From positions 2,108,001 through 2,172,000 of the forward strand of contig NZ_CP043329.1 in the NCBI RefSeq assembly GCF_008195825.1: a stretch of DNA of 64,000 nt, read 5' to 3'. Shown in pieces: positions 29,756 to 53,322 of this stretch. Within the stretch, counting starts at the first letter, position 1; every line of letters begins with the position of its first letter. The translations under genes and the position numbers were made by a program. The stretch comes from Pedobacter aquae. GTDB lineage: Bacteria; Bacteroidota; Bacteroidia; Sphingobacteriales; Sphingobacteriaceae. A model generated the notes under the pieces. That model searched no databases and was not told where the DNA came from. It worked only from the letters and a program-made list of their open reading frames with translations.

Positions 29756-31092
29756 TTAATGAGTATGACTCTTCTTATTATCTTGAATGTATAGGACAGA
29801 GACAGCGCCAAGAATCATGAAAATACCTGCCATGACGATGGCATAAATTGCCTCTCCGTTATAAAAATGTTTTACTATTAACCCGCCAAAAAAACCATTT
29901 ACAATTTGCGGCATGGTGATAAAAAAATTGAAGATACCCATGTAAACCCCCATTTTTCTGGCTGGTATAGACCCCGATAGTAAGGCATAAGGCATTGCTA
30001 AAATACTTCCCCAAGCCAAGCCTACGCCTACCATAGAGATGATAAGCATATTAGGATCTTGAATAAAATAGATAGATAAAAGTCCGGCACCACCAGCAAT
30101 TAAAGAAAAAGCATGAGCCATTTTTTTGCTGGTTAACCTTACTATGGCAGGTAAAAAAAGTGCATAAATAGCAGAAACGGCATTGTAGATACCAAATAAG
30201 ATACCTACCCAGTTTCCAGCATCAGCGAAAGCTACAGAATTGGTATCACCAGGTGCTACTTTATAAATATGATTGGCTATAGCCGGGGTAGAAAAAACCC
30301 ACATAGAAAACAAAGCAAACCAAGAAAAAAACTGCACCAAACCTAGCTGCCTCATGGTTAAAGGCATCTTAGAAAAATCGGTAAAAATAGAGCTGATACC
30401 TTTAGATTCTTCTACCTCTTCTTCATCTTTAGAAAAAGCAGCCATTTCTGCTGGAGAGTATTCTTTGGTACTTACTACTGTCCATAAAATAGAAGCTAAT
30501 AATACCAAAGCGCCCGCATAGAAAGCATAAATCACATTATCTGGTACAAAACCACTGGCAGCTGTTTTAGAAACCCCAAAGTATTCTGATAAAATATAAG
30601 GCAGCCAAGAACCGCTAACGGCACCAACACCTATCAAAAAGGTTTGCATAGAAAAGCCTAAACTTCTCTGGCTTTCTGGAAGCTTATCAGCCACTAAAGC
30701 TCTAAAAGGCTCCATAGCAACATTAATAGAGGCATCCATAATCATAAGCATACCGGCACCAATAAGTATTGGGGGCAGAAAGTAGGCAAGCAAAGCAGCG
30801 TTTGGCATTAAGGTTAAAGCCAAGGCAGTTAAAATAGCCCCTATTAAAAATAGGGTCTTCTACGGCCAAATCTATTCCAAGTTCTATCGCTATAATAACC
30901 AATAATGGGTTGTACCAACATACCTGTTACTGGGGCAGCCAACCAAAAAAGAGAAAGATGTTCCACATCGGCACCAAAGGTTTGTAAAATACGCGAAGCA
31001 TTACCGTTTTGTAAGGCAAAACCAAACTGGATTCCGAAGAAACCAGCACTCATGTTAAAAATTTGCGCAAAACTTAATTTAGGTCTTTCCAT
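29756..31092 (-). CDS. MFS sugar (maltose-type, SLC45-like) transporter, interrupted by a -1 frameshift
   Basis: This is an inner-membrane transporter of the type found in Bacteroidota maltodextrin loci, probably importing maltose for the phosphorylase. The first 82 residues hold two hydrophobic segments and the MFS loop motif YYSDRTWNRFGRRRPYF. The remaining ten or so helices are in another frame that begins after the A run 30846-30850. One added base turns TATTTTTAA into a continuous YFLIGAIL and gives 445 residues, normal for the family. The cytoplasmic loop EEEVEESKG sits mid-protein. It follows GH65 by 18 bp. The break coincides with a homopolymer and leaves all other codons intact. Confidence 0.87.
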
Positions 31093-33461: not shown

Positions 33462-34133
33462 TTACAGGCTTCTACTCTTCTCTAACTTGTTTAAAATTTG
33501 TGCTGCGCTTTGGCCTTCTAAATTTGGCAGTACCCAATCGGCGTTTTTTAAAATGCTTTCTTCACCAATACCAATAACCCGCATATCTGCATTTTTTGCC
33601 GCTTCTATCCCGGCAAGGGCATCTTCAAAAACCACACATTGTTGTGGCGCTACTTGTAATAATTGTGCTCCTTTTAAAAAAACTTCGGGATTTGGTTTAG
33701 ATACTGAAACTTCATTTCCATCAACTATAACATCAAAAAATGAGGTTAAACCCGTACGTTCTAGAATTAAGCTTGCGTTTTTACTAGCCGAGCCTAAAGC
33801 ACATTTAATACCTGCTGATTTTAATGAACTTAATAAGCTTTGCACCCCAGGTAAAATTTCCTGAGCTGTCATCTTATTTATCATTTCTACATACCACTGG
33901 TTTTTTAAAGTGGCAAGTTCTTGCACTTCTTTAGCTGTTTTTTCTACACCACCCCAGCCTAAAATCAGGTTTAAAGAATCTATCCTACTGATGCCTTTTA
34001 ACTGCTCATTTTGGGCTTCAGTAAAATCAAAACCAAGTGTATTGGCTAGCTTTTTCCAGGCTTTAAAGTGATAAACTGCGGTATCTACAATAACGCCGTC
34101 TAAATCGAAAATAAAAGCTTTTATCGTACTCAT
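33462..34133 (-). CDS. pgmB: Beta-phosphoglucomutase
   Basis: This HAD-superfamily enzyme converts beta-D-glucose-1-phosphate to glucose-6-phosphate. Motif 1 is FIFDLDGVIVD with nucleophile Asp10 and acid/base Asp12. The cap has AWKKLANTLGFDF and LKGISRIDSL, motif 2 is LGSASKNA, and motif 4 is VVFEDALAGIEAAKNADM. The 223-residue length is normal. It overlaps the preceding GH13 gene by 4 bp and precedes GH65 by 14 bp. The pairing with a GH65 phosphorylase is a well-known maltose-phosphorolysis module. Confidence 0.94.
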   Translation of the reverse strand: MSTIKAFIFDLDGVIVDTAVYHFKAWKKLANTLGFDFTEAQNEQLKGISRIDSLNLILGWGGVEKTAKEVQELATLKNQWYVEMINKMTAQEILPGVQSLLSSLKSAGIKCALGSASKNASLILERTGLTSFFDVIVDGNEVSVSKPNPEVFLKGAQLLQVAPQQCVVFEDALAGIEAAKNADMRVIGIGEESILKNADWVLPNLEGQSAAQILNKLEKSRSL

Positions 34134-35970
34134 TGCAGCTCCATTACCAAAGTACTTATGCTCGGAATTTCCATGGCTACGCTTAAATCGTATACTTTTC
34201 CGCTTACAATATCCTTTGCCTTTTTAAAACCTTGAGTTCTTTCGCTAAAGCGTGATGTTTCTAACGACATAACTTTATCATTACTGTTTACCACCACCAT
34301 AACGGTTTTAGCATTATCGTATCTGAAATACACATAAACACCGTCTTGTGGTACAAATTGCATCAGTTTGCCAGTTTGTAAAGCTGTTGTTTGCTTGCGG
34401 TACTTAGCTATGGTTTTGATATAGTTGAAAACATCATTTTCTGCAGCTGTTCTACCCTCGCTGCTAAACTTATTTACTTTATCTTCTGCCCATCCGCCAG
34501 GGAAATCAGAACGTACCAAACCATCGGGATTAGAAAAGTTCTTCATCATGATTTCTGTACCATAATAAAGCTGTGGTATGCCTCTGGTGCTTAACAACAT
34601 CGCTAAACCAGATTTAAACTTCTTTACATCCTCGCCAACGATAGAGAAAAACCTGCTCATATCATGGTTATCTAAAAACACAACATTTCTACTGGCATCT
34701 TTATAAATAAAATCTTGTGATAAAACGGAGTATAAACGGTTTACACCTGTAGTCCAGTCGAACTTACCATTTAAAACATCAAAAATAGCATCCTTAACCT
34801 GTACATCTGTAACACCGGGTAAACCTGTATCAAAACCTTGTCCTATGGTATTGCCTTCCGTAAAATAAGCCTGACTTACTACTGAGTTCACCAAAGTTTC
34901 GCCAAAATACCTAGGTGCGGAAATTCGGCTTTCATTTGTGCAGCCCATTTAGCCATATAGTTTAGGTTATTATAAGGGTAAGTATCTAACCTTAAACCAT
35001 CTATCCCAGCATATTCTACCCACCAAATGATGTTTTGGGTGATGTAATTTTGTACAAACTCGTTCTCCTGATTTAAATCGGGCATGGTACGTACAAACCA
35101 ACCATCTAACATTTGCTTTTTATCTGCCGCAGCAGCATAAATATCCATTAAGGTTTGGTCTTTATAAGTGGTTTGAGTGTAAGTAGGCCATTGGTGTACC
35201 CAATCTTTCATGGGCATATCTTTGATAAACCAATGCTCGTTACCACTGTGGTTGTGTACCACATCTTTAATTACTTTAAGGCCTTTAGCATGTGCCTCAT
35301 CCACAAACTTTTTGTATAGCTCGTTAGAACCGAAACGAGGGTCTATTTGATAATGGTCTGTAACTGCATATCCATGGTAAGAAGCCAGTGGTTGGTCGTT
35401 CATTACCTCCGGAGTTAACCAAATAGCCGTAGCACCAAGTTCTTTGATATAATCTAAGTGATTGATGATGCCTTGAATATCGCCACCATGACGATAGTAC
35501 ATAGAATCTCTGTTTAGAGCAGTTTCTTTTAAGCCTTTAACAACATCATTATTTTTATCGCCATTGGCAAAGCGGTCTGGCATCAATTGATAAATAAAAT
35601 CTTTATTGGTAATGCCCTGAATTCTGTTTTTAGCGTCTCTTTCTCTTAATTCGTAATTGTATGCTAAAGTTTTAGCTCCTTTTTTAATAAACTGTATTAA
35701 GAATTTTCCCGCTTTCGCTGATGTAGAAACCTCTAAATCCAAAAACAAATAATTAGGATTTTCTACCTGATGCACCTTTTTTAAGCTAACACCCGGATAA
35801 TTGAGTTGTACTGTTCTTTCGGCAATTTTATCGCCATAGATGATGAGTTGCAGCTGCTGATTTTTCATCCCTACCCACCAAAACAAAGGCTCTACCCTTT
35901 CTAATGGTTTGGGAGCTGCAAATATTTGCTGACAAAACAGCAAGAAGAATATAGAGAGTAATTTTTTCAT
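34130..35970 (-). CDS. GH13 amylase/neopullulanase-like enzyme (SusA-like), interrupted by a -1 frameshift
   Basis: This is a secreted alpha-glucan hydrolase of cyclomaltodextrinase/neopullulanase type. A signal peptide (MKKLLSIFFLLFCQQIFAAP) and an N-terminal beta domain precede the barrel with FIYQLMPDRFANGD, VIKDVVHNHSG and nucleophile region GLRLDTYPY. The frame is lost at the A run 34904-34907; one more base makes HLGIFGETLVNS continuous, restoring the acid/base Glu in FGET and giving 613 residues. FLDNHDMSRF supplies the third catalytic Asp. Because nucleophile and acid/base fall in different fragments, neither piece could work alone. It probably acts in the periplasm on imported maltodextrins, as SusA does. 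Confidence 0.88.
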
Positions 35971-35992: not shown

Positions 35993-38448
35993 TTACCACG
36001 ATAAGGATATTTTATCCGTATCATTTTTGATGATTAAGCTTTTAGCTTGATATCCTTCTGCCGGATTATTATTCCCCTGCGGATCAAACCTTGATATTGG
36101 CGTTAATAAAGACACAAATTCATTTTTAGTATTGATAGATTTCCCTGCATTTTTTAAAGCTTTTAAATCATCAAAACCTGTAAACACAACCTTGATATAG
36201 TTGAACTTAGATTTATAGTTACCTTCTACTTTATCAAAAACTAGGCTTTTAGTACTTGGGCTATATAAAATTACCCTTTTAAAGAACTCGCCTTTTTCAT
36301 AGTTATAGCTATCGCCATCATCTTCATAATAAACATAGTTATTGTTCAACTCGCCTTTATAAACATGGATAGTTAAAGTATCTGTAGGTTTTTCTGCGGT
36401 TGTTTGTATTAAAGACTGCATCGGGATGATACTGCTTTCTTTAACATAAACCGGTAGTTTGTGCATGTTTAGTTGTATAATTTTTTCTTGATTACCTTGC
36501 TCTTTATCAGCTGTATAAAGGTTATACCAAGTAGCTTTAGGGAAATATACCTTTCCGTATTTATCTGTACTTTCAAAAGGAGCTACCATAATGGCTTTAC
36601 CAAAGAAAAACTGATTTTGGAATTGCGTATCGTAAACTTTAGCATCATGCGTATAGTCAATAGCTAAACTCCTCATGATAGGTTGGCCACTTGTGCTTGC
36701 CTCATAAAATGCGCTGTATAAATAAGGAAGCATTTTATACCTTAAGCTAATGTAGTTTCTAGAGATTTCTAAAACTTCTTCGCCATAGCTCCACGGTTCT
36801 GATGATTTGGTATTTACCGCCGTATGATTTCTGAAATAAGGGTTAAAAGCACCAATCTGAATCCATCTGGCATAAAGTCCTACGGTTGGATTTCCTGTAA
36901 AACCGCCTATATCCATCCCTGTAAAGGCAACCCCACTTAAGCCTAGGCTATTCATTAATCTTACGCCTAAAAGCATATGATTATCTTCAGAACGGTTATC
37001 GCCTGTCCACTTTGCAGTATAACGCTGCATACCTGCATAGCCCGCTCTGGTTAAAATGAAAGGACGTTTATTTGGTACTTGCTCTGTAATTCCTTCAAAA
37101 CTAGCTCTTGCCATCTGCATACCATAAACATTATGTGCTTGCTTGTGAGATGCCTTCATCCCATCATAATCAAACAATACGTTTGAAGGCATTTTTTGAC
37201 CCCAAGTAGCTATCTCGTTCATATCATTCCAGATACCAGACACACCCGTTTCTGCAAAAAACTTCACTTCCTTTTTCCACCAATTTCTTGCTTTATCGCT
37301 TGTAAAATCTGGAAAATGACACCAGCCCGGCCAAACCTGCCCGCTGTAGTTTGTACTATCAGGATATTTTATGAAAATATTATCGGTTAAGCCACGCTCA
37401 TATGCACCATAATTTTTCTCTACTTTAATGCCTGGGTCTACAATAACTGTTGTTTTAAAACCCATTGACGATAGCTTTTTAGTCATCTCTAAAGGGTTTG
37501 CAAAACGCTGTTTATCCCAGGTAAATAACTTATAATTGTCCATATAATGGATATCTAAGGTGATACCATCAGCAGGGATTTTTTCTCTCTTAATGTTTGA
37601 GCTATACGATACACTTCTGTATCGGGATAATAGCTATAACGGTTTTGCTGGTAGCCTAAGCTCCATAGTGGAGGCATTTTCATGCGACCAGTTAAGGCCG
37701 TGTAGGAAGTAATAATATCTGCCAGATTTTTGTGGTAGATGAAATAATAATTCATTTCGCCACCTTGCGCACCAAAAGACGAAAAACGATTGTTAGAAGC
37801 ACCAAAATTGAAATCGCTTTGGTAGGTATTGTCTAAGAAAATACCATAATTTAAATTGTTGTGGATACCTATATAAAAAGGTATGGTAGAGTAAATGGGG
37901 TCTTGGTCGGTACGGTAGCCAAAAGCATCGGTATTCCAGTTGGTATAGCCATTCCCTTTACGGTCTAGGTTACCCGTTTTTTCGCCTAAGCCAATAAAAC
38001 GTTCACCTTCTTGCATTTTTTTGTAGGTAGTCACTTCCTCGCCAACCCAAGAGGTTGTTAAATCCGCTTCATCTTGATTGATGATTCTCCCATCAAGCGT
38101 TTGAAAACTTATGGCATATGGTTTTTTTTGGATAACAGCCTTTAAAGAATCTGTTTGGATGATGACTAAATCATCTGTTTGTGAGATATTAACTTTTGTA
38201 GTTTTTGGCTGCGAGATGACCGCATAAGAAAAATCTTTCTTTAAGCTTTTATCGATACGTACTCTCATAACATTAGCACTGTAAACAGTAATTTCTGTTT
38301 GTGCATGGTCTGTAGTTAAATTTACTTTTTGGTTGTTTACCACTACTGATTTTACATTACCAATAGGTAAAACCTGAGCATCAGCATTAACGAAGTTTAA
38401 GCCTAAAATGGTTAAGCTGGCTATCACTCCTCTAAAAGTCATCTTCAT
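35993..38448 (-). CDS. GH31 alpha-glucosidase, interrupted by a -1 frameshift
   Basis: This is an exo-acting alpha-glucosidase that releases glucose from maltodextrin ends. The signal peptide ends near VNADAQ. The first fragment (to about 37580) holds the N-terminal beta-sandwich (GEKTGNLDRKG, YGIFLDNTYQ) and the start of the barrel (PPLWSLGYQQNRYSYY). The frame is lost at the T run 37579-37584; one added base gives LREKKIPADGITLDIHYMDNYK and a continuous 818 residues. The second fragment has the nucleophile in GIWNDMNE and the acid region WTGDNRSED, then the C-terminal beta domains. It follows a hairpin/T-tract after susE/F, so its expression may be lower than that of the susCDE genes. Confidence 0.9.
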
Positions 38449-41141: not shown

Positions 41142-44100
41142 TTAAAATCCAAGGTTTAAACCTAATGTAAATGTTCTAGGTCTTGGATAGAAGTTGTTAT
41201 CTATACCTCCACTTATTTCAGGATCAATTCCATCATATTTAGTAAGAACAAAAGCATTTTGGATATTTCCGCTGATGCTTAAATTTCCTGTCCCTTTAAA
41301 TACTTGGCCAAAATTATAACCTAGGTTAAAGTTATCCATTCTTAAGAATGATGCATTTTGTACATAGTAATCCGATAAAAAGTATTGGTCTCCAGCTCCC
41401 GAAAATTGGGTATTTAGAATATCTCTTGAGCCATTACTTAAGAACTCTAAAGGATTAAAGATATTTCTATAAGTACCTGTGCTAGAAGCTACGTTATTAT
41501 ATACGTAATTGTTAATGTTAGCTCTTAAAGTAAAACCACCAGTGAATTTTTTGTAATTAAAATTCGAAGTAAAACCTAAAAAAACATCAGCATCAGGATC
41601 TTTAAATCTGTAAAGATCTTTATCAGAAATTTGTCCATCACTATTTCTATCTACAAATACTCCATCAAGAGGTTTTCCATTAGCATCATAAACTTGTTGA
41701 TACACATAAAAAGAAGCTCTATTGAATCCTACAGAATTAATTTGGATATTATTACCAGTACCACCAGAAATACCGCCAAATCTGTTACCGATAAAGTTAG
41801 GATCATCTACCAATGTTAAGTTGGTAATAGTATTTTTATTGAAGGTAGCGTTAAAAGAAAGGCTTAATCTGAAATCAGTTTTATCAACCGCTAAACCTGT
41901 AATCATCATCTCGATACCTTTATTAGTCATGTTACCAACGTTGTAAGTAAATTCGTTAATAAAGTTTGTTCCAGCAGGTTGAGTGATATTACTCAATAAA
42001 TCGCTAGTGTTTTTGTAATAAGCATCTATGCTACCAGTAATTCTATTATTGGCGAAACCATAATCTAAACCAATGTTAGATGTAGCTGTCGTTTCCCATT
42101 TAAGGTTAGGATTAAAACCTAAAGGGCGATACATATTAAAAAACTCATTACCCAATTGGTATTGCGCAGTTGGTGTACTTAACGCATAGTTAGCTAAGTA
42201 AGAATAATTACCTATTCCTTCTTGCTGACCAGTAATACCATATCCAACTCTTAGTTTCAAATCAGAAAATACATTAGATGATTTCATGAATGATTCTTCT
42301 GAAATTCTCCATGCAAATGCTGCAGAAGGGAAAATACCTACTCTATCTTCAGGATTGATACGAGAAGAAGCATCTGATCTTACGGTAGTTGTTAAGGTAT
42401 ATTTATCACTTAAAGTATAGATCATCCTACCATAAATAGAAAATAATCTATTTTGAGGAACATCCAATGGGAAATTAGGCTCCGAATTTGGTCTTATCGT
42501 TCCATCAAAACTAAAATCAGCAAAAGAGTAATTTCTAGCTTCAAACGCCTGATAAGATGTACCACCTGTTATATCAATACGGCTATTAATTGATTTTATG
42601 TCCTTAACATAATTTAAATAGAAGTCAGAAACATAGTTAGAACGCTCTTGCTTGTATTGGTTATTTACACCACTTTTGTTTGCTCCGTTAGCATCTGCAA
42701 ATCTACGGAATGCAAAACCAGCACTTTCAGGAACAATTATAGTTCCTCGACCTTGTGCCACATCATAACCTAAATTTAAATTAGCTCTTAAATCTTTTAA
42801 GAAAGGAAGTGCATAATCTAATTGGATATTTCCTATGCTTCTGTAAACATCCGATGTATTGTTTCTTAAATCTAAAAATGAAACTGGGTTACGTGGTGCT
42901 AAACCTACTAATGGATTTACACCCGGTCCAGCTTGAGGATTTAAATATTCAAAAAATCCACCAAAGTTTTGGTTACCCGAAAATATAGGTTGAGTAGGGT
43001 TAAAGGTAGCAGCAGTACCAATAGCAGCGCCATCAGCAAAACGGCTATTACTTAAACTACCTTTTAAACTTACATTCACTTTTAAGCTATTATTAAATAG
43101 GGAAGGGTTTAGGTTTAAACCTACAGTTCCTCTATCTAAGGTTCCTGTTTTCAATAAACCATCCTGAGACAAGTATCCAAGTGATAATCTGTAAGGAAGT
43201 TTTTTATAAGTTCCTGCTACACTTAAATTATTATCGGAAGTAATGGCATTATCATAAATAGCATCCTGCCAATCGGTATCAACATTACCTAATTGAGTTA
43301 ATAATTTTGTTTTTAAGGCAGGAGTAACTGTAGTATTAGTAGGTGCATTGGTTACTAAATCTCGGAACTCCGCAGGTGATAAAATATCAGCCTCTCTAGC
43401 TAAAGTTGCTACCGAGAAATTGGTACCGAAATTAACTTTAGCTTGTCCGCTTTCACCTTTTTTGGTGGTGATTATAATTACACCATTAGATCCCCTGTTA
43501 CCATAAATTGCAGTTGCAGAAGCATCTTTTAATACGGTAAATGATTCAATATCATTAGGGTTAATTAAGGAAAGTGCATTTGGAGATCCCGCAATGCCAC
43601 CTTGGTCTAAAGGAACTCCATCTACCACAATTAGTGGATAATTATTTCCAAAAGAAGAACCACCTCTTATTAAGATGTTACTTCCACTTCCTGGCTCACC
43701 ACTACCCTGAGTGATTTGCACACCGGCAATTTTACCCGCAATTAATTGCTCTGGACTTGTAATTTGTCCTTTAGTAAAATCTTTTGTGGTTACAGTAGTA
43801 ATAGATCCAGTAATATCTGCTCTTCTGGTTGTACCATATCCCACAACTACCACTTCGTCTAGACCTCGGCTATCTGGAACAAGAGAGAAATTAAGCACTT
43901 GCGGAGTAGCAGAAACGGTAATTTGTTTCTTTTGTTCTACATAACCAACAAATCTTGCGGTTACGGAAACGTTCCCGGATTTAATTCCAGAAATTTGGTA
44001 ATTACCATTTACATCAGTTTGAGTGCCTAAAGATGTGCCATCTATAAACACCGCAGCACCTGGTAAAGGCTGGTTAGCTTCGTCAATGATTTTACCTGAA

Positions 44101-44189
44101 ATACTTCCGCTCTGAGCTTTTACAACTACAACGTTCAGGATTAAAAGTAACATCAAAAGACCACACTTTTTTAAGTAATAGAGTTTCAT
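41142..44189 (-). CDS. SusC/RagA-family TonB-dependent transporter (starch locus)
   Basis: This is the outer-membrane importer of maltodextrins. I chose the ATG at 44189 because it begins a good signal peptide (MKLYYLKKCGLLMLLLILNVVVVKAQ); the frame is open to 44246, but that adds 19 polar residues before it. A carboxypeptidase-D-like domain (GKIIDEANQPLPGAAVFIDG) is followed by the SusC signature DEVVVVGYGTTRRADITGSI, the plug (LIAGKIAGVQITQG, IYGNRGSNGVIIITTKKG) and a long barrel ending NFYPRPRTFTLGLNLGF. It is the first structural gene of the starch operon, behind a palindrome and a LacI gene. Specificity is inferred from the neighbours. Confidence 0.95.
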   Translation of the reverse strand: MKLYYLKKCGLLMLLLILNVVVVKAQSGSISGKIIDEANQPLPGAAVFIDGTSLGTQTDVNGNYQISGIKSGNVSVTARFVGYVEQKKQITVSATPQVLNFSLVPDSRGLDEVVVVGYGTTRRADITGSITTVTTKDFTKGQITSPEQLIAGKIAGVQITQGSGEPGSGSNILIRGGSSFGNNYPLIVVDGVPLDQGGIAGSPNALSLINPNDIESFTVLKDASATAIYGNRGSNGVIIITTKKGESGQAKVNFGTNFSVATLAREADILSPAEFRDLVTNAPTNTTVTPALKTKLLTQLGNVDTDWQDAIYDNAITSDNNLSVAGTYKKLPYRLSLGYLSQDGLLKTGTLDRGTVGLNLNPSLFNNSLKVNVSLKGSLSNSRFADGAAIGTAATFNPTQPIFSGNQNFGGFFEYLNPQAGPGVNPLVGLAPRNPVSFLDLRNNTSDVYRSIGNIQLDYALPFLKDLRANLNLGYDVAQGRGTIIVPESAGFAFRRFADANGANKSGVNNQYKQERSNYVSDFYLNYVKDIKSINSRIDITGGTSYQAFEARNYSFADFSFDGTIRPNSEPNFPLDVPQNRLFSIYGRMIYTLSDKYTLTTTVRSDASSRINPEDRVGIFPSAAFAWRISEESFMKSSNVFSDLKLRVGYGITGQQEGIGNYSYLANYALSTPTAQYQLGNEFFNMYRPLGFNPNLKWETTATSNIGLDYGFANNRITGSIDAYYKNTSDLLSNITQPAGTNFINEFTYNVGNMTNKGIEMMITGLAVDKTDFRLSLSFNATFNKNTITNLTLVDDPNFIGNRFGGISGGTGNNIQINSVGFNRASFYVYQQVYDANGKPLDGVFVDRNSDGQISDKDLYRFKDPDADVFLGFTSNFNYKKFTGGFTLRANINNYVYNNVASSTGTYRNIFNPLEFLSNGSRDILNTQFSGAGDQYFLSDYYVQNASFLRMDNFNLGYNFGQVFKGTGNLSISGNIQNAFVLTKYDGIDPEISGGIDNNFYPRPRTFTLGLNLGF

Positions 44190-44392
44190 TTTGATTAGTT
44201 TATTTTGGTATGAATAATTGGTTTCTAAATTGTCATTCACAGACAAAGACTAAGTTACTCTTCTATTTTAAAAAACAAAATTTTAAATAAAAAAATATTC
44301 CACACCTATTTTTGAAAAAATCAGAGTGTATTCTGACACAGAATCATTCAACAAAATGAAAATATAAAATATTGATTTACAAAACTTTAATA

Positions 44393-44400
44393 CAAATCTA
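44393..44400 (-). promoter_or_regulatory. Possible Bacteroidota -7 element for the starch susC
   Basis: TAGATTTG on the - strand fits the Bacteroidota -7 consensus TAnnTTTG, about 200 bp upstream of the susC start. The nearest TTG (44426-44428) is 25 bp away, a little too far for a standard -33 element, so this is a weak call. Confidence 0.35.
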
Positions 44401-44444
44401 TCATTACCTTATTGTATTTTTTACACAATATAATTTTTACTAAT

Positions 44445-44478
44445 TTTTCGGGAACGGTACCGGCACCGTTCCCGAAAA
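44445..44478. promoter_or_regulatory. Perfect 14-bp-arm palindrome, candidate LacI-family operator
   Basis: Arms TTTTCGGGAACGGT and ACCGTTCCCGAAAA are perfectly complementary around the spacer ACCGGC; the centre also contains CGGTACCG. It is between lacI and susC, about 255 bp upstream of the susC start, in an otherwise AT-rich 431-bp gap (44190-44620). The stem is followed by A rather than T on the lacI-coding strand, so it does not look like a terminator. A second small inverted repeat (TATTGT/ACAATA) lies at 44410-44430. Nothing else is seen in the gap. Confidence 0.6.
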
Positions 44479-44620
44479 TGTGAATAACTTTTATGTTACT
44501 CGAGTCAAAATTCTTCCTGATTTTACAATTTGTTTGAAAAAATTTAATTTTTTATCCTCTTAAAATGAGTAGAATTTATATAAATTTTGTGCTAATTTTT
44601 TTTAGGATTTTCACAAAATC

Positions 44621-45634
44621 TTACCCACCTCCGCTAGAGCGTCGCTCTATTAATTTTGAGTTGAGAGTCAAGTTATCTGATTCTGAAAAGTCTCCACCAG
44701 ATTCCATAGCTCTGAATAAAATTTTGGCCGACTTAACGCCCATTTCAAATGCGGGTTGGGTGATGGTAGATAAGGATGGATTTAGTAGTGGGGCAATCTC
44801 TAAACTAGAAAAACTGATAACTTTTAAATCTTCCGGGATTTTAATTCCTAGTTCATAAGAAACATAATAGGTAGAAAAAGCTAACCTTTCTACCGATGCG
44901 AAAACACCATCGGGCTTTAGGGTTTTAAAAGCCTCTTTTAATATGATACTATTGGCTTCGTAATCGTTACTACAATCTATTACATATTCATCAACATATG
45001 GTAAACCATGCTTTTTTAAAGCATCTACATAGCCATTCATACGGGTTTTGCCAATAGAAAGGTTTTTATTCACCACTAAATAAGCTATTTTTTTACAGCC
45101 GGCTTTTATCAAATGCTCGGTAGCATCAAAACTACTTTCGTAATCATTAGTAGTGATTTTTGCGGTATCAATATCCTCATAAACCCTATCAAAGAAAACC
45201 AAGGGCATTCTTTTACTCTTTAGCTTTTTCAGGTATTGATGATCGTTAGCTTCCCCAGAAACAGACATGATCACACCATCTGCCCTACCACTGTTGAGGT
45301 GCGTTATGTAAGCCACTTCCTTTTCGTAATTATCATCGGTAACGTAAATTAAAACATGATAATCTTTCTCTCTAGCCACACCCTCAATACCTCTAATAAC
45401 TTGTGAGAAAAAATTATTGGCTATCTCTGGAACAATAACAGCAATAGTTTTGCTTCTTTTCTCTCGCATATTACTAGCCAAATGGTTTGGCTGGTAATTA
45501 AGTTCTTTAGCCATAGCGAGGATACGCTCTTTTGTTTCTTTATTAATATCACTATGCCCCCTAAACGCTCTAGAAACTGTTGATGTAGATAAATTTAGTT
45601 TGGCAGCTAACTGTTTGATATTAATAGCATCCAT
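44621..45634 (-). CDS. LacI-family transcriptional regulator
   Basis: This is a one-component regulator of 337 residues. The N-terminal helix-turn-helix (INIKQLAAKLNLSTSTVSRAFRG) and hinge helix region (LNYQPNHLASNMREK) are followed by a periplasmic-binding-protein-like sensor domain with IAVIVPEIANNFFSQVIRG, DGVIMSVSGE, VFFDRVYED and a C-terminal MGVKSAKILFRAME. It is upstream of the starch susC in the same orientation, separated by 431 bp that contain a strong palindrome. It most likely controls the starch/maltodextrin operon in response to maltose or a derivative; whether it represses or activates cannot be read from the sequence. Confidence 0.92.
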   Translation of the reverse strand: MDAINIKQLAAKLNLSTSTVSRAFRGHSDINKETKERILAMAKELNYQPNHLASNMREKRSKTIAVIVPEIANNFFSQVIRGIEGVAREKDYHVLIYVTDDNYEKEVAYITHLNSGRADGVIMSVSGEANDHQYLKKLKSKRMPLVFFDRVYEDIDTAKITTNDYESSFDATEHLIKAGCKKIAYLVVNKNLSIGKTRMNGYVDALKKHGLPYVDEYVIDCSNDYEANSIILKEAFKTLKPDGVFASVERLAFSTYYVSYELGIKIPEDLKVISFSSLEIAPLLNPSLSTITQPAFEMGVKSAKILFRAMESGGDFSESDNLTLNSKLIERRSSGGG

Positions 45635-53298: not shown

Positions 53299-53322
53299 AG
53301 CCCAAGGTTTAAACCTTGGGCT
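53299..53322. repeat. Perfect 24-bp palindrome between convergent genes
   Basis: AGCCCAAGGTTT and AAACCTTGGGCT are exact reverse complements with no spacer. It sits between the + strand membrane protein gene and the - strand hypothetical gene, as a bidirectional terminator would, but neither side has a long T-tract. It may be a terminator hairpin or a dimer-binding site. Confidence 0.6.

Follow-up and report, generated by a model that had tools for sequence, protein, structure and literature searches.

A candidate LacI operator with two overlapping registers ahead of a starch-uptake operon in Pedobacter aquae

Between a gene for a LacI-family regulator and the susC gene that leads a starch operon, the Pedobacter aquae genome carries a long inverted repeat, which raises the question of what this element is for and what recognizes it. 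We examined it within a window of 64,000 nucleotides (the whole stretch of DNA analysed, to which all positions refer unless a genome coordinate is given) and in related genomes. The palindrome reads TTTTCGGGAACGGT-ACCGGC-ACCGTTCCCGAAAA, with perfect 14-bp arms located exactly where a preliminary description had placed them; with a zero spacer it can be read as 17+17 bp with one mismatched pair. No other inverted repeat in the window has arms of at least 14 bp and a loop of at most 10, and a comparable one appeared in 1 of 200 dinucleotide-preserving shuffles. The palindrome is thus real and beyond chance. The other descriptive points made earlier also hold: the 26-bp core is GC-rich (0.73) in AT-rich flanks (0.16 and 0.22 over 100 bp on either side), the element lies 142 bp past the lacI stop and 255 bp ahead of the susC ATG, and there is no T-tract, since TTTT precedes and AAAA trails the stem on both strands. 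A second copy was absent from the 3,854,044-bp genome with up to 3 mismatches allowed, and this uniqueness rules out a dispersed repeat. The window contains just one other perfect palindrome whose arms reach 12 bp, AGCCCAAGGTTTAAACCTTGGGCT, at 53299-53322. On the minus strand, TTATTCACA, which we take to be a DnaA-box-like word, abuts the operator at 44479-44487, and similar words occur near the operators of loci L043, L046, L049, L051, and L052.

The genes that follow susC, all on the minus strand, encode SusD-like and SusE-like proteins, GH31 and GH13 enzymes, a HAD-family enzyme, a GH65-family enzyme, a transporter-like protein, and an amylase-like protein. Each of the GH31, GH13, and transporter-like genes is divided between two reading frames close to short homopolymers, likely as a result of long-read sequencing errors. 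By sequence, the closest solved relatives of the P. aquae LacI are CcpA proteins. The genome has another LacI-family gene, whose product is 35% identical to this LacI, roughly 1 kb ahead of the window, at G000:C1:2106076-2107074.

LacI-family operators are palindromes of about 14 to 20 bp centred on C/G (here and below, a slash marks the centre of a dyad). In many related genomes a simple dyad of this type, TCGGGAAC/GTTCCCGA, follows lacI. The P. aquae element departs from it in that its outer halves are 12 bp further apart, giving CGGGAACG-N10-CGTTCCCG, an arrangement shared with Pedobacter puniceum (L071), Hufsiella (L072), a Chitinophagales genome (L085), and others. Fusing two canonical operators with a 12-bp shift would be expected to leave this arrangement, the fused form being CGGGAACG-GTACCGGCAC-CGTTCCCG, in which two operators overlap with their centres 12 bp apart (Table 1). 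Both registers in P. aquae are centred on C/G and, together with the plain zero-spacer dyad of the relatives, fit the form of a LacI operator. Its outer half-sites are intact (CGGGAAC and GTTCCCG), and each register has 2 of 14 mismatches; because both are equally imperfect, the local copy resembles one long palindrome. The preliminary description had suggested two GGAACGGT half-sites here, which we correct: the repeat unit is TCGGGAAC/GTTCCCGA in two overlapping registers, with CGGGAAC as the half-site.

Table 1. Positions of the palindrome, its registers, and neighboring features in the window.
Feature	Position	Strand	Basis or remark
Whole palindrome, 34 bp, flanked by TTTT and AAAA	44445-44478	.	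Sequence, inverted-repeat scan
Register 1, LacI-type operator TCGGGAAC/GGTACCGG, centre 44455/44456	44448-44463 (G000 2152448-2152463)	.	3/16 mismatches to TCGGGAACGTTCCCGA
Register 2, LacI-type operator CCGGCACC/GTTCCCGA, centre 44467/44468	44460-44475 (G000 2152460-2152475)	.	3/16 mismatches
CCGG, self-complementary middle half-site common to both registers	44460-44463	.	Register overlap; CG invariant in 50/50 fused sites
Second dyad GTGT-N7-ACAA, 23 bp after operator core	44412-44426	-	P. aquae
AAATTTTG in promoter-like block ATATAAAATTTTGA	44276-44283	-	Block conserved among relatives; putative promoter
lacI, 337 aa, LacI-family regulator, proposed binder of the palindrome	44621-45634	-	PF00356, PF13377
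susC, lead gene of the putative target operon (ATG at 44189)	41142-44189	-	TIGR04056
Split genes (GH31, GH13, transporter-like)	35993-38448, 34130-35970, 29756-31090	-	Frames

We searched for the fused site in 400 genomes of the host order, using the reversed pattern as a control. The outer halves with a free 10-bp gap matched once in each of 50 genomes, from 5 of 22 genera, while the reversed control at this gap gave 15 matches in 11 genomes. When the gap was allowed to vary from 2 to 32 bp, 57 matches were found in 55 of the 400 genomes, with a gap of 10 in 50 matches, 11 in two, and 20, 21, 22, 30, and 31 in one each; since the reversed control then exceeds the pattern's own 57, with about 119 matches in about 82 genomes, the argument rests on the peak at a gap of 10 and not on the total. 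The inner decamer, which the search left free, has T at position 2, CG at positions 5-6, and A at position 9 in all 50 sites, and it has 1 to 4 differences from the ideal TTCCCGGGAA, a closeness that a random decamer would reach with a probability of about 0.015. The 50 sites represent 13 distinct sequences and, given that the genomes are related, are not independent events. One register is a perfect GGGAACGTTCCC in 43 sites, and neither is perfect in the remaining 7, which include those of P. aquae and P. puniceum; the inner halves show degeneracy at the second and fourth positions from each centre. With the inner bases fixed, the fused form was found in 43 of the 400 genomes, and no match to the reversed control was seen.

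Shorter patterns behaved differently. The motif GGAACGGT proposed earlier did recur at up to 2 mismatches, with scattered matches in 24 of 60 genomes, but the reversed control also had many matches, so that only extended patterns are informative. Within the P. aquae genome there was no enrichment of the inner GGTRCCGGYACC alone (18 against 17 for the control) or of the single operator with 3 mismatches (5 places against 13).

If the palindrome is bound by the adjacent LacI, the site should accompany close relatives of that protein. A family search over 61 genomes supplied 30 LacI loci, in which the 600 bp after lacI were scanned for an operator, called at no more than 2 of 14 mismatches to CGGGAACGTTCCCG, with a permuted pattern as the control. 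An operator was present at 19 of the 21 loci with a LacI identity of at least 54% and at none of the 9 below, and the permuted control matched nowhere in these 30 loci. Most of the sited loci bear the plain dyad, and the gene downstream is susC in 14 and an amylase homologue in 5. The two close relatives with no operator adjoining lacI in the 600-bp scan are L050 (66%) and L057 (57%); the genome of L050 has sites ahead of susC and within a GH13 gene, so regulator and site are unlinked there. Among 80 named loci, a site followed lacI in 2 of 12 at an identity of at least 54% (L071 and L072) and in 1 of 68 below it (L085), against 1 for the control; the sets overlap, L072 being on the same contig as L042 and L071 matching G013. 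The LacI of P. puniceum (L071) is 98% identical to that of P. aquae. Loci L073-L079 and L144, whose LacI proteins are 63-67% identical, have no site after lacI, and susC falls outside the stretch fetched; the site is most probably missing there because lacI is not beside susC. We dropped recognition-helix residues as a sole discriminator, as L068-L070 share TSTVSRA-type residues and have no site nearby. At L058, about 90-125 bp past lacI, a single operator forms the middle of a perfect 40-bp palindrome.

We also asked which neighboring gene the fused site accompanies, using 30 loci fetched from the 43 with the fixed-inner-base form. A susC homologue (36-58% identity) stands on one side of the site in all 30 loci, and lacI stands on the other side in 25; in the remaining five genomes the LacI orthologue (65-67%) is located elsewhere, which indicates that the site goes with susC and not with the end of lacI. 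Each of six genomes, the five with unlinked lacI and G031, has an extra near-perfect site inside a GH13 gene, and in one fetched locus a further near-perfect site lies at the start of an amylase homologue or close to it. Weak matches mean little, as ten chosen genomes gave 30 matches at 2 mismatches against 18 for the control, and we therefore place weight on the near-perfect sites at starch genes. P. aquae also has an operator-like CCGGGAACGTTTCCGT inside susC (43963-43978, 1 of 14 mismatches), 491 bp from the palindrome centre. Lac-type looping would call for a second operator conserved inside the first gene; among 32 loci scanned, this candidate partner fits at 1 of 14 mismatches in P. aquae and P. 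puniceum and is absent from the other 30.

These comparisons bear on two readings in which LacI plays no part. The first is an RNA hairpin, such as an intrinsic terminator, that ends the lacI transcript. It would account for a palindrome that sits after a gene, and the RNA is predicted to form a stable stem-loop (-25.4 kcal/mol, z -6.25). However, a terminator scan of 42800-45200 omits the palindrome, and both the zero-spacer palindrome of single-operator relatives and the position of the single operator inside the promoter spacer in L046 and L052 speak against a hairpin. Together with the missing T-tract, the five genomes in which the site precedes susC with no adjoining lacI, and the lack of any Rfam match, this leads us to set the RNA reading aside as extremely improbable. 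That a regulator other than the adjacent LacI binds the palindrome might be suspected from the LacI orthologues with no site beside them, but the six checked genomes with unlinked or site-less lacI retain both the site and the orthologue, and the dyad is of LacI type: its centre is C/G and its core matches that of a published LacI-family consensus (in the accessible part of PMC9953190); we consider such a regulator very unlikely. Judged from sequence comparison, the palindrome is very probably the operator of the adjacent LacI-family starch/maltose regulator, with two overlapping registers 12 bp apart. The preliminary description had suggested a compound LacI operator heading the starch operon, and the comparison across genomes supports it as a candidate site.

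How might LacI occupy such a site? The reading heads of LacI-family proteins touch about 4-8 bp from each operator centre, and at a 12-bp offset between centres two dimers would need one and the same CCGG for their inner heads. Two fully bound dimers should therefore clash under this geometry, and the most likely effect of having two registers is a higher occupancy. We propose that dimers would dock singly, in one register or the other, on one outer half together with the shared middle CCGG. Joint, cooperative binding of two dimers in the manner of CodY would agree with the exact 12-bp spacing retained in 50 genomes, and overlapping sites have precedents in CodY and Fur (in the accessible part of PMC10415144), but the demand of both inner heads for the same CCGG and the degeneracy of the inner halves make it a doubtful alternative.

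Once bound, LacI would most likely repress the susC-led operon, and a maltose-type sugar would release it. Bacteroidota promoters are built on the boxes TTTG and TAnnTTTG. The single operator of L046 and L052 exactly fills a TTTG-N19/N20-TATnTTTG spacer, which favors repression, and the operators of L043, L049, and L051 overlap the core promoter similarly, with weaker boxes. Among the fused loci a larger distance separates operator and promoter-like block, and in P. aquae the operator ends 166 bp upstream of the promoter-like AAATTTTG, a distance at which an anti-activator or activator role is possible. LacI might thus activate susC, or block or help a factor at a second dyad, from far upstream and with no direct block of the polymerase. 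The operator-to-dyad spacing, fixed at 24 or 34 bp and thus differing by about one helical turn, would suit such an arrangement, whereas the operators lying over core promoters in relatives fit repression; we regard action from far upstream as somewhat unlikely.

The second dyad, GTGT-N7-ACAC in the relatives, lies 24 bp from the operator in 24 of 30 loci and 34 bp in 5, and it is missing in 1; in this alignment the P. aquae row was counted as gaps, and its offset was measured separately. Genome-wide, its excess over the control is small and uneven (pattern/control in eight genomes: 6/3, 9/3, 11/0, 6/6, 6/4, 6/5, 7/4, and 2/4). Similar dyads occur near putative glyceraldehyde-3-phosphate dehydrogenase and transketolase genes, neighbors that hint at a carbon regulator as the binder. 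A further dyad, GTGT-N6-ACAC, lies between operator and susC at 44326-44339, and in most rows of L156-L185 the word ACGCAGAATT recurs at a near-fixed distance (about 45-60 bp) upstream of the fused operator. We propose that LacI would act together with another factor, bound at the second dyad some 24 bp downstream. The broader reading takes the two-register LacI operator with its three half-sites as a regulatory design conserved in the order and as part of a composite starch-uptake switch replacing SusR; in our judgment it has about an even chance of being right. If so, one dimer would toggle between the two CCGG-sharing registers at their exact 12-bp offset, or two dimers would compete or cooperate there, and the element would be phased by whole helical turns to a second site, perhaps that of a global carbon regulator.

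A search of open-licence papers turned up neither this site nor any fused double operator for LacI, and in the accessible part of a LacI regulon survey (PMC4052901) the words Flavobacter and Sphingobacter are absent. The published systems compared below are described from the accessible parts of their sources. CebR2 of Streptomyces scabiei, a LacI-family protein with the operator consensus TGGGAACGTTCCCA, shares the identical 12-bp core GGGAACGTTCCC with the fused site, but it belongs to a cello-oligosaccharide system and its sites are single 14-bp palindromes (PMC9953190). Two copies of the CodY motif likewise overlap at a fixed offset, and single copies may be weak, although CodY is of an unrelated protein family and its 15-nt sites overlap by 6 nt, for 24 nt in total (PMC10415144). 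MalR/AcrC of actinomycetes resemble the proposed regulator as LacI-family repressors at maltose and amylase genes, yet they use CTTGC-type half-sites in separate operators (PMC5526262). The BT4338 (Cur/Crp) site of Bacteroides, with the consensus wwwTATGTTnTAnAACATAwww, is like the second dyad a dyad near carbohydrate genes; by eye, GTGT-N7-ACAC differs from that consensus in half-site and spacing (PMC6989115). A LacI-type starch operator is therefore of a known kind, and its fused form with a 12-bp offset is new. The exact overlap with a shared half-site raises the question of whether LacI dimers compete, slide, or cooperate, for which relatives with single or well-separated operators provide natural controls. 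SusR of Bacteroides, in the same phylum, also controls a susC-led starch operon, but it is a membrane activator acting at direct repeats 67 or 77 bp apart, whereas P. aquae has a LacI protein and a palindrome (PMC3878776); our results thus offer a testable operator and regulator for the starch-uptake operons of Sphingobacteria-type Bacteroidota that use LacI and not the SusR of gut Bacteroides.
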